From Akkermansiaceae bacterium (GTDB lineage: Bacteria; Verrucomicrobiota; Verrucomicrobiia; Verrucomicrobiales; Akkermansiaceae), in NCBI GenBank assembly GCA_030725745.1, contig JANRFH010000033.1, positions 1 through 64,000 on the forward strand: DNA of 64,000 bases, in the 5' to 3' direction. Position 1 is the stretch's first letter, and each line of letters opens with the position of its first letter. The notes beneath the pieces were generated by a model. It searched no databases and had not been told where the DNA came from. It saw nothing but the letters and a program-made list of their open reading frames with translations. Positions 1,448-33,507 of this stretch are shown here, piece by piece. A program made the translations under genes and the position numbers.

Positions 1448-1661
1448 GGAGAAATTTGCAGGGCACCTACATTTGAAAATGTTAACCGCAGATGGACGCA
1501 GATTCACGCAGATGGAAGAGGAAGGCCTAAAAAACCACCGCAGAAAAGTGAGTTTGGCAGCTAAGGAAGCTCATTCTTTTTTATCTGCGTCCATCTGCGG
1601 TTGGATTTCTTCCATTTCACATCATCGCTATTCCAAATGTAGGTGCCCTGGAGAAATTTGC
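1448..1661. repeat. 12-bp direct repeats flanking the 1460-1649 element (putative target duplication)
   Basis: GGAGAAATTTGC is present at 1448-1459 and again at 1650-1661, directly abutting the two ends of the inverted-repeat element. A preceding GGTGCC is also found on both sides (1442-1447 and 1642-1647), but on the right it is part of the element terminus. A duplication created on insertion is the simplest reading. Twelve base pairs is long for a typical MITE target duplication. Confidence 0.7.
1460..1649. mobile_element. 190-bp MITE-like element with perfect 16-bp terminal inverted repeats
   Basis: The ends are AGGGCACCTACATTTG (1460-1475) and its exact reverse complement (1634-1649). 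A second, internal perfect inverted repeat of 20 bp (AACCGCAGATGGACGCAGAT at 1484-1503 and its complement at 1583-1602) makes the element able to fold into a long hairpin. The left arm continues as three tandem 10-mers, CGCAGATGGA, CGCAGATTCA, CGCAGATGGA (1487-1516). No convincing gene lies inside; small open frames across it are by-products of the repeat. It sits in the intergenic space between ribH and the 1784 gene and may affect ribH transcription. The internal repeats resemble those around the GxxExxY gene at 31.2-31.7 kb. Confidence 0.75.
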
Positions 1662-30260: not shown

Positions 30261-31166
30261 CTACAGGCTGTTGGCGAAGGCGGTGGCGGGCATTTGCTTG
30301 GAGCCTTCGGGTTGGACTTGGGTGAGGGCGAGGGATTGCTCGCCGCAGCCGATGAGGAGCTGTCCTTCGTGGACGATTAGTTCTCCGGAAGGAAGAGATT
30401 GATCTACTATGGAAATAGGAGGGAAGATCTTGAGGCGTTTGTTTTTTTCTTTGATGGAGACTTCCGTGAATGTGCCTGGCCATGGGTGGTAGGCGCGGAT
30501 TTTACGTTCGATGGATGAGGCTGATTGAGTGAAGTCCAAGCGGCCGTGTTCGCGGAGGAGTTTTGGGGCGTAGGTGACTTCTTCTGGGTTTTGTGGGGTG
30601 CCTGCGTTTGGATCTTCGGAAAGGATTTCCAAGGCTTCGGAGAGGGCTGCGGGGCCGATGTCGGCGAGGCGGTCGTGGAGTTCTCCGGCGGTTTCGGTTT
30701 CACCGATGGGAAATTTTTTCACCGAGATGATGTCGCCTGCATCGAGCTCGCGGATGACGTGCATGATGGTGATGCCGGTTTCGGGGTCGCCGTTGGCGAT
30801 GGCGGATTGGATGCAGGAGGCTCCGCGGTATTTCGGGAGGATGGAGGCGTGGAGGTTGATGATGGCTTTTTTGGCGGCTTTGCGGACGGCTTTTCCGATG
30901 ATTTGTCCGTAGGCCATGACGACGATGAATTCAGGAACGAGGTCGGTGAGTTCATCGGCGATTTCTCCGATTTTTTCCGGCTGCCAGACGGGGATGCCGT
31001 GGGCTAGTGCGACGGTTTTGATTTCCGGGGGAACGGTGGAACTCTGGCTGCGGCCGACGGGTTTGTCGGGCTGGGTGATGAGTAGGCATGGCTTGGGGCC
31101 GTGCTCGATGAGGTGGCGGAAGGTTGGGAGGGCGATGTCTCCGGTGGCGATGAAGGCGATTTTCAA
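30261..31166 (-). CDS. fmt: Methionyl-tRNA formyltransferase
   Basis: Formylates initiator Met-tRNA with 10-formyl-THF. 301 aa. IAFIATGDIALPTFRHLIEHG and TQPDKPVGR at the N-terminus. The catalytic segment INLHASILPKYRGASCIQSAI carries Asn and His, and the following ETGITIMHVIRELDAGDII carries the Asp. The C-terminal OB-like tRNA-binding domain includes IRAYHPWPGTF. It is not next to def here. A repeat-bracketed GxxExxY gene separates it from recN, which lies on the same strand. Confidence 0.95.
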   Translation of the reverse strand: MKIAFIATGDIALPTFRHLIEHGPKPCLLITQPDKPVGRSQSSTVPPEIKTVALAHGIPVWQPEKIGEIADELTDLVPEFIVVMAYGQIIGKAVRKAAKKAIINLHASILPKYRGASCIQSAIANGDPETGITIMHVIRELDAGDIISVKKFPIGETETAGELHDRLADIGPAALSEALEILSEDPNAGTPQNPEEVTYAPKLLREHGRLDFTQSASSIERKIRAYHPWPGTFTEVSIKEKNKRLKIFPPISIVDQSLPSGELIVHEGQLLIGCGEQSLALTQVQPEGSKQMPATAFANSL

Positions 31167-31213
31167 AATTTTAGAGCTGGTTAGCGACTGAGCTTAAGTG
31201 GGAAGAATTCTGA

Positions 31214-31745
31214 CCACGGATGGAACGGATTTACACGGATAAGAAATGATTTCCGATTATCGGATGACTCGTTTCCATTTTAGGTCGGCGAATTTGAAAT
31301 TGATGAGGATAGCTAGGCGGAATCCAGTGATTGCAAGATAGCCCATCATTTGGGCGTGATGGGTCTCGGTGAATGACGAGGCGACTTTGGGGTCAACGAT
31401 TACTGAATCATTTACGAGAAGATCTGGGATGAGGGTATCGACTAAATGTCCTTGGTATCTTACGTCAAAACGGCGTTGCTGTTCGACTTGGTGGCCGCGC
31501 TTTTTTAGCTCGATTACTAGAGCATTTTCGTAGGCTTTCTCGCTGAGGCCTGGCTTCAGTGTGTTCAGAACCTGCATTGCGGCTCCGATAATTGATTCGG
31601 AAAGCTCGCGGTGGAGGAGTTGGGTGTCTTGCATGGATACTATTTTAACCACGGATGAAACGGATTTTCACGGATATGACTGGAGTTCTGGAAATAGTCT
31701 TTTTAGCTTTTAATTCTTATCCGTGTAGATCCGTTCCATCCGTGG
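31214..31745. mobile_element. Repeat-bracketed unit carrying a GxxExxY gene
   Basis: A 32-bp repeat at 31214-31245 (copy A, starting CCACGGATGGAACGGAT) and its reverse complement at 31714-31745 (copy C) differ at one position. A third, direct copy B at 31649-31675 (2 mismatches to A over 27 bp) sits directly in front of the gene. Each copy is three ACGGAT units spaced 9-10 bp. Copies B and C alone form a hairpin unit of about 100 bp similar in layout to the inner repeats of the 1460-1649 element. The unit occupies the gap between recN and fmt. Mobility is inferred from structure; no transposase is present. Confidence 0.6.
31257..31634 (-). CDS. GxxExxY protein (PD-(D/E)XK-like)
   Basis: 125 aa from MQDTQLLHRELSESIIGAAMQVLN; a GTG 18 nt upstream lies inside the adjacent repeat and is less likely. 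The name-giving motif is GLSEKAYENAL (G-x-x-E-x-x-Y). The nuclease-like core follows: VDTLIPDLLVND, then VIVDPKV and HHAQMMGYLAITG, ending in LINFKFADLKWKRVI. In most members I recall, the E-x-K of the core is ELK; here the first residue is Asp (DPK), so catalysis is uncertain. The function of the family is unknown. The gene is enclosed by repeat copies A and C, with copy B in its 5' leader. Confidence 0.85.
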   Translation of the reverse strand: MQDTQLLHRELSESIIGAAMQVLNTLKPGLSEKAYENALVIELKKRGHQVEQQRRFDVRYQGHLVDTLIPDLLVNDSVIVDPKVASSFTETHHAQMMGYLAITGFRLAILINFKFADLKWKRVIR

Positions 31746-31768
31746 TTTAGGACGAATTCTACAGTATG

Positions 31769-33418
31769 CTAACCTTCGAGGAGTGAGGCGGCCATGGCGC
31801 GGGCTTGTTGGCCGCCGCCGCCTAGCATGCGGACGAGTTCGTTGATGCGTTTTTCGCCTTCTACGGGGTAGAGCTTGGAGCGTGTGCGGCCGGAGGCGAC
31901 TTCTTTTTCGACGACGAAGTGGTGGGCGGCGATGGCGGCTACCTGAGGGAAGTGAGTGATGGCGATGACTTGGTGAAGCTGGCCGAGGAGCGCCATTTTT
32001 TTGCCGACGGCTTTGGCGATTTCTCCGCCGACGTTGGCATCGATCTCATCGAAGACCATAAGGGGGGTGGCGTCTTGCTCTGCGAGGGAGGATTTGACTG
32101 CGAGCATGACGCGGGAAATTTCTCCGGAGGAGGCGATTTGGCGGAGGGGGTGGAGGGGCTCGCCGGGGTTGGGGCCGAAGAGGAAGTTGCAGGATTCGAG
32201 GCCGTGTAGGGTGGGGTCTTTCACGGTGGTGAGATCCACTTCGAAGGAAGATTGTTTGAAGCCGAGTTCCTTGAGCTGGGAGGCGATTTCTTTGGCGAGC
32301 TTGGGTGCGGATTTCTTGCGCTGGGTGGTGAGTTTTCTCGCGATGGTTTCAAGTTCTTTGCGGGACTCGGCGAGGGCGGCGGTGAGGGCTTCGATTTTCT
32401 CGGAGCGGTTGTCGATGTTGTCGAGGCGGGTGGAAATCGTTTCCTGGCGGGAAATGATGTCCTCGATGGATGGGCCGTATTTGCGCTTGAGTGATTCGAC
32501 GAGGTTGACGCGTTCCTCGATGGTGGCGGCTTCCGAGGGGTCGATGTCGAGTTCTTCGGCGTAGTCGGTGAGGGTGGCTTCGAGATCCTGGAGTTCGATG
32601 GAGGCGGTTTCGAGGGAGGTGAGTTTCTCGGTGAGGGAGGGGTCGAGTTTTTCTAGATCGCGGGTGACTTTCTGGAGATCGGAGATGTGGGAGAGGATGC
32701 CGTCGTCTGATGAGAGTGCGGAAACGGCTTGGGCGGCGAGTTCGACGAGGCGGGTGGAATTACTGGATCTGTGGTAGCGCTCTTGGAGGTCGTCGCCGTC
32801 GTCTGGGGTGAGGTTGGCGGATTCGATTTCGTCGAGCTGGTAGCGGAGGAGTTCGAGTTCCTGCTCGGAGGCGTCGGAGGCGTTCTGGATTTCCTCGAGT
32901 TCCTGTGATTTTTCGCGCCAGGTGCGGTAGGCGTGGCGGTAGGTGGTGAGTAGTGGCTCGTTGGCGGCGTAGGCGTCGAGCATGGCGAGCTGGCGCTCTT
33001 GGGAGAGGAGGGATTGGTGATCGTGCGGGCCGTGTAGATCGACGAGGCGTTCGCCGACTTTTTTCAAAAGAGTGAGGGTGACGGGGGAGTCGTTGATGAA
33101 CTGGCGGTTCGCGGTGGTGCCGATGGAGCGGCGGATGATGATCTGGGTGTCATCGCAGGCTTCGAGGCCACCTTCTTCGAGGATGGCGTTGATTTCGGAG
33201 GGATCTTTGAGGTCGAAGACGGATTCGATGGTGCAGGTTTCCTCGCCGGTACGGATGAGGCCTTTGTCGGCACGCTCGCCGAGGATCATTTTGAGGGCAC
33301 CGACGATGACGGATTTTCCGGCTCCGGTTTCGCCGGTGACGGAGATGAGGCCGGAGCCTAGCTCCCATGCGAGTTCGTCAACGAGGGCGAGATTGCGGAT
33401 TTTTAGGAGGGTGAGCAC
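31769..33418 (-). CDS. recN: DNA repair protein RecN
   Basis: SMC-like ATPase acting in double-strand-break repair. 549 aa if started at GTG 33418 (LTLLKIRNLALVDEL, exactly the RecN N-terminus); an in-frame TTG at 33439 adds 7 residues. Walker A is TGETGAGKSVI, HGPHDHQSLL is the Q-loop region, and the long middle (~150-380) is coiled coil. The C-terminus has the signature SGEISRVMLAVKSSL, Walker B LMVFDEIDANVGGEIA and VIAITHFPQVAA. Confidence 0.95.
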   Translation of the reverse strand: MLTLLKIRNLALVDELAWELGSGLISVTGETGAGKSVIVGALKMILGERADKGLIRTGEETCTIESVFDLKDPSEINAILEEGGLEACDDTQIIIRRSIGTTANRQFINDSPVTLTLLKKVGERLVDLHGPHDHQSLLSQERQLAMLDAYAANEPLLTTYRHAYRTWREKSQELEEIQNASDASEQELELLRYQLDEIESANLTPDDGDDLQERYHRSSNSTRLVELAAQAVSALSSDDGILSHISDLQKVTRDLEKLDPSLTEKLTSLETASIELQDLEATLTDYAEELDIDPSEAATIEERVNLVESLKRKYGPSIEDIISRQETISTRLDNIDNRSEKIEALTAALAESRKELETIARKLTTQRKKSAPKLAKEIASQLKELGFKQSSFEVDLTTVKDPTLHGLESCNFLFGPNPGEPLHPLRQIASSGEISRVMLAVKSSLAEQDATPLMVFDEIDANVGGEIAKAVGKKMALLGQLHQVIAITHFPQVAAIAAHHFVVEKEVASGRTRSKLYPVEGEKRINELVRMLGGGGQQARAMAASLLEG

Positions 33419-33507
33419 TGGAGAAACTTTAAATTTCAAACGTTAAACTTCAAGGAAGATGAATGCTTGTCGCTAAGCTCTAGTGTCTGGAGTTTGCTGG
33501 GGTGCTA

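Follow-up and report, generated by a model that had tools for sequence, protein, structure and literature searches.

In homing endonuclease genes, the allele that encodes the nuclease takes the place of the one resident at a fixed site, and no target-site duplication is made. The GxxExxY proteins form a widespread family that, to our knowledge, has no known function. Among systems in which a small gene is associated with repeats, the RAYT/TnpA_REP genes lie singly beside their own repeats, inverted pairs of these repeats occur elsewhere without a gene, and the repeat type tracks the protein type (PMC3116915; PMC8266576); no mobility of tnpA_REP is evident (PMC8266576). The intervening sequences (IVS) of the 23S rRNA are selfish units of about 430 bp (428 nt in Coxiella) with one small ORF and terminal inverted repeats (PMC4990558).

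The boxed gene between recN and fmt

In the window, the stretch of 64,000 nucleotides of Akkermansiaceae DNA that was analyzed here, three copies of one repeat surround a single small GxxExxY gene in the space between recN-like and fmt-like genes, as the original prediction held. The features of the locus, and a related palindrome from another part of the window, are as follows:

30261..31166, − strand, fmt-like formyltransferase gene, boundary of the site
31205..31211, unstranded, GAATTCT outside arm A, chance-level
31213..31245, + strand, arm A, 3' of the GxxExxY gene, ACCACGGATGGAACGGATTTACACGGATAAGAA, three ACGGAT units, inverted with respect to arm C
31257..31634, − strand, GxxExxY gene, ATG start, 125 aa, PD-(D/E)XK nuclease fold (predicted)
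31647..31679, + strand, arm B, 12 bp 5' of the ATG, inverted with respect to C, direct repeat of A
31714..31747, − strand, arm C, outer upstream arm, AACCACGGATGGAACGGATCTACACGGATAAGA
31754..31760, unstranded, GAATTCT outside arm C, chance-level
31769..33439, − strand, recN-like gene (RecF/RecN/SMC-type), boundary of the site
1484..1602, unstranded, gene-less GCAGAT-class palindrome, arms 1484–1503 and 1583–1602, related unit class

Arms A and C are inverted with the one mismatch that had been noticed (32 of 33 nt, 97%), B and C are inverted at 88% and lie 35 nt apart, and A and B are direct copies (81% over 47 nt). Each arm contains three ACGGAT units at a spacing of about 10 bp, and within the whole window the exact pattern ACGGAT-NNN-ACGGAT occurs only at these three arms. 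Arm B is indeed a direct copy of A in the leader of the gene, but it belongs to a small palindrome that it forms with C just upstream of the gene, and this C-B palindrome is gene-less in the closest relative (G022). A longer frame of the ORF begins at a GTG (31257–31652, − strand); the ATG at 31634 is the best start.

The encoded protein is a member of the GxxExxY family (TIGR04256, 129.3 bits, cut-off 35; PF13366, 123.3 bits, cut-off 22). A sequence search of solved structures returned nothing meaningful; the AlphaFold2 model (pLDDT 96.3) gave its best solved-structure match by Z score with the Cas4 nuclease SSO0001 (Z 9.9 over 98 residues), other PD-(D/E)XK nucleases scoring lower. The conserved residues are E32, D71, K83, Q95, and Y99; across 74 sequences D71 is invariant and E81 and K83 reach at least 90%, and in the protein of the window D-P-K stands where most have E-x-K. 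Fold and D...(D/E)xK core agree with the PD-(D/E)XK assignment made earlier, and the prediction for this protein is a minimal Cas4/RecB-like nuclease. The protein shares the closest fold and the D...(D/E)xK...QxxxY pattern with Cas4/RecB-type nucleases, but its 125 aa comprise the core domain only and no cas genes are present in the box. The values of dN/dS, mostly 0.04–0.2, indicate strong purifying selection on GxxExxY genes. No strong match to a known anti-phage defense system was found in PADLOC-DB (only PDC-S02 at E 0.022), nor any match in 50,697 phages, IMG/VR or PHROGs that would point to a viral origin; the family is rare on plasmids (8 of 72,556).

The unit resembles the 23S rRNA IVS with S23/four-helix-bundle genes in its size, its one small ORF and its terminal inverted repeats, but the fold of GxxExxY is different, the boxes are intergenic, the arms are iterated and no RNA-pairing signal is seen. 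The window box, with its PD-(D/E)XK protein, lies between recN and fmt and is therefore not an IVS, which would be a four-helix-bundle ORF within the 23S rRNA.

Inverted arms across the GxxExxY family

The enclosure of the gene by its own repeats proved to be general. The inverted-repeat score between upstream and downstream flanks exceeded 12.3 at 79 of 94 loci from relatives and at 55 of 72 loci from named genomes, the latter compared with 42 of 1834 displaced windows on the same contigs; a score above 15 was reached by 46 of the 72 and by 5 of the 1834 controls. Mispaired flanks from different named loci were often above 12.3 (238 of 1067), as expected if loci have unit words in common. Iterated RCNNA[GTA] units scoring at least 24 were found at 124 of 174 GxxExxY loci and at 1 of 248 displaced controls, in a scan restricted to RCNNA[GTA] hexamers and one ACxGGAT form; repeats are thus enriched at the flanks of these genes, which the original prediction had proposed to test, whereas none of 27 recN genes carried such units. 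About one quarter of the GxxExxY loci are without clear arms by these scores, and many of the relatives' genomes are draft assemblies. Named loci with arms come from 17 named phyla or more, and one of these loci is archaeal (Methanobacteriota). Judging from these sequences, the box is almost certainly a family-wide, multi-phylum architecture, and the boxing of GxxExxY genes by inverted arms is a general pattern that apparently has not been reported. The exact repeat words had no match in the open-access literature, where the GxxExxY text found was unrelated to repeats; the name "GxxExxY" also occurs in an algal virus genome report.

From outer end to outer end the box has a median length of 470 bp, one arm ending a median of 15 bp 5' of the start codon and the other beginning 9.5 bp 3' of the stop codon. 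An arm usually consists of three or four copies of a unit of about 10 bp with the form RCNNA[G/T/A], and its outermost end is (T)TTTAACC, with the consensus TTTTAACC. Flank complementarity falls to background about 18 bp beyond the first unit, which gives the element a distinct boundary. An extra upstream palindrome like that of the window is present at some loci, among them one on contig C26 of G000. The family does not share one repeat sequence, as had been supposed, but a repeat class whose unit differs from gene to gene; other words in the inverted flanks of relatives include CGCCAAG, ACGGAG, ACGAAT, and ACTGAT.

The two arms of a box change in concert. In set A, a site common across the genus, the similarity was 0.70 between upstream and downstream arms within a locus and 0.43 between the same arms of orthologues, and variant units were mirrored in order between the arms (L057, L041). 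This was clear in sets A–C and not in D–F. Mismatches between arms showed no G-U-compatible excess (178, vs. 215 of the A-C type), which makes conversion between the arms, or selection acting on the DNA, likelier than pairing in RNA.

The unit word follows the protein. The same unit was common to 54% of between-genome pairs at >60% protein identity and to 5% of same-genome paralogues, and the last base of the unit required 10 changes on the protein tree, compared with 26.5 in shuffles. This shows, at the level of sequence comparison, that arms and gene are co-inherited; the association of unit and protein clade is compatible with recognition of the unit by the protein and is no proof of it.

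Cognate repeats also occur as gene-less inverted pairs in the same genome. In 797 kb of the window's genome, 34 arms were counted, compared with 1 in shuffled sequence, and by our tally of this sample 19 of 28 gene-less arms carry the unit of a resident gene. Across 39 genomes, the number of GxxExxY genes correlated with that of ACGGAT double units (rho 0.50), and the five genomes noted to have an ACGGAT-type box gene hold more ACGGAT repeats than the others. Some of the others contain such repeats too, so a living gene is not a strict requirement for their presence. In G018 (L083 on contig C45, and other contigs), 65 ACGGAT double-unit matches were found, many in regular up/down arrays, which is a local expansion of the repeat. 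In the window itself, the gene-less GCAGAT palindrome lies inside a 20-bp outer inverted repeat, CAGGGCACCTACATTTGAAA (1459–1650), which resembles the ends of the CAGGGTGCCTACA type that surround certain ACGGAT palindromes (L003, L010, L018, L310). This nested arrangement is a possible MITE, and some of the gene-less palindromes within MITE-like outer ends could have moved with those ends.

The analogy with RAYT/TnpA_REP and their REP/REPINs (REPtron), which was part of the original prediction, therefore holds in outline: a small gene has its own repeats, resident units recur in gene-less inverted pairs, and the repeat type goes with the protein type. The enzyme and the form of the repeat differ. 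GxxExxY has a PD-(D/E)XK fold instead of a Y1/HUH enzyme (only PF13366/TIGR04256 matched), and its arms are iterated RCNNA[GTA] units of about 10 bp with an outer consensus rather than GTAG-tagged palindromes. Moreover, unlike RAYTs, several GxxExxY paralogues are present per genome, and the gene box itself is exchanged.

Exchange and relocation of boxes

At the site of set A, most pairs show much greater divergence in the box gene than in its flanks. Three close genomes illustrate the exchange. In L043 and L063 the box gene is 100% identical and the box near-identical, with one unit different in the upstream arms, whereas the flanks are 88% identical; in L043 and L064 the flanks are 93% identical and the gene 64%. 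Against a genome background of about 91% at other loci, the identity switches within tens of bp of the arms. In L023, site A is occupied by a CGCCAAG-type box that is otherwise found at site B. Thus a box can replace the resident allele at a fixed site. Relocation is indicated by L018 and L085, which have in common a 463-bp element (92.7% identical) with unrelated flanks; the flank of L018 lies 1.5 Mb away in the genome of L085 and is there without the element. The relocated gene of L085 (G004:C1:1649586–1650048) has an in-frame stop codon, and decayed copies therefore persist. Boxes often stay at the same site across the genus, so movement is infrequent. Taken from sequence comparison, it is highly probable that the box, delimited by its arms, is passed on, moved, and replaced in one piece, and the idea of a self-spreading unit gains support from these cases.

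The recN-fmt junction varies among relatives, where the prediction had called for a search for empty sites. The closest relative, G022, has the gene-less C-B palindrome only, G004 has no repeat, and at the junctions of G017 and G015 (L223, L224) a different repeat of the CACTCTTCACTCTT type is found; identical content in all relatives, which would have spoken against a mobile unit, was not seen. Either a gain in the lineage of the window or a loss in G022 may explain the polymorphism. An origin of the gene-less palindrome by simple deletion between A and B is unsupported because the remaining arm of G022 keeps the outer flank of B. The intergenic site seems to be repeat-prone.

The GAATTCT repeat is present just outside arms A and C, as described, but it does not argue for a target-site duplication because shared 7-mers beyond the arms show no enrichment across the family (7 observed, 3.5 expected, shuffles up to 10). 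Direct repeats of 7–8 bp flanking the boxes showed no significant enrichment, and those of 6 bp were borderline (23, vs. 13 expected, with a shuffle maximum of 23). Considering this family-wide result, and with GxxExxY as the sole gene in the element and no transposase, the box lacks two hallmarks of a classical IS or MITE. With homing endonuclease genes the box shares the replacement of a resident allele at a fixed site, again with no target-site duplication; unlike these, the GxxExxY box is located outside introns, inteins, and host genes, and its putative target is its own arms.

Candidate mechanism and alternatives

Based on the sequences compared, we consider it slightly more probable than the opposite that the nuclease acts on its own arms. 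It would recognize the arm units as duplex, hairpin or cruciform and cut there. Recombinational repair involving a second arm or box would then make both arms of a box alike; it would also, as in homing and with no target-site duplication, copy a box onto a resident one or into a pair of arms that lacks a gene, and it would leave gene-less inverted pairs behind. In the window, the gene and arm A would have been placed beside a C-B palindrome that was already present between recN and fmt, the alternative being gene loss in G022. We infer that a nuclease acting on its own arms, together with recombination, is the account with the fewest assumptions for box swaps that leave no target duplication, for arms that match, and for gene-less pairs. 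The scheme as a whole, in which a boxed nuclease acts on its arms and spreads the box by repeat-directed, homing-like recombination, falls a little short of being probable, and the homing-like route of spread, taken by itself, is put forward tentatively.

The most serious alternative is that the gene is a passenger: the arms would be made, spread, and equalized by the host, through template switching at inverted repeats or through recombination, or by another element, the gene would serve the host in some other role such as DNA repair or silencing, and boxes would swap by ordinary homologous recombination, which by chance could give short tracts ending near the arms. Strong purifying selection, the many boxes fixed at one site across the genus, and the MITE-like outer ends around some palindromes are in its favor. 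So is its strongest argument, that unrelated genes could be boxed by one common process of the host: four-helix-bundle (S23/IVS-type) genes of the same phylum (TIGR02436, loci L110–L139) also have inverted iterated repeats (22 of 29 above 12.3), of a different class with the unit words AGTGGC, TAAGC, TCAGC, and GAGCTTA. As these genes are not nucleases as far as known, a nuclease may not be needed for a box. However, the RCNNA[GTA] class is specific to GxxExxY (0 of the 29 four-helix-bundle genes), the unit tracks the protein clade rather than the genome, and replacement tracts end near the arms; we regard the passenger explanation as unlikely, if still a real competitor.

Self-regulation, with the protein binding the arms as operators or terminators of its own gene and mobility being incidental, would suit the short distance between upstream arm and start codon and the agreement of unit with protein clade. 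This is improbable, since it leaves unexplained the mirrored downstream arm, the unit-by-unit concerted change of the arms, the gene-less pairs, and the swapping of boxes. Still less probable is an element that acts in RNA, in the manner of the 23S rRNA IVS, with arms pairing in the transcript and selection on the RNA structure, for although the Coxiella IVS (428 nt) has a similar size and terminal inverted repeats (PMC4990558), the G-U-compatible excess is absent. A classical transposon or MITE moved by a transposase encoded elsewhere, despite its inverted ends, gene-less copies, and the outer CAGGGTGCC-type ends around some, is the least probable, because target-site duplication is lacking and the unit word differs per gene clade within one genome.

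Returning to the nuclease acting on its own arms, the loss, relocation or swapping of the box in one piece suggests a class of minimal mobile DNA that has apparently not been described. In its most specific form, which we offer as a possibility somewhat less likely than its converse, this class would comprise, in at least 17 phyla, stand-alone Cas4/RecB-like nucleases homing on their own terminal iterated repeats, with specificity co-evolving clade by clade, and overwriting rival boxes at common intergenic sites. The boxing and the exchange of units provide a testable function for the GxxExxY family and predict its DNA targets, whose units differ by clade. This suggests a PD-(D/E)XK counterpart of REP/RAYT and offers an explanation for the ACNGAG-, ACGGAT-, and CGCCAAG-type repeats in many environmental genomes.
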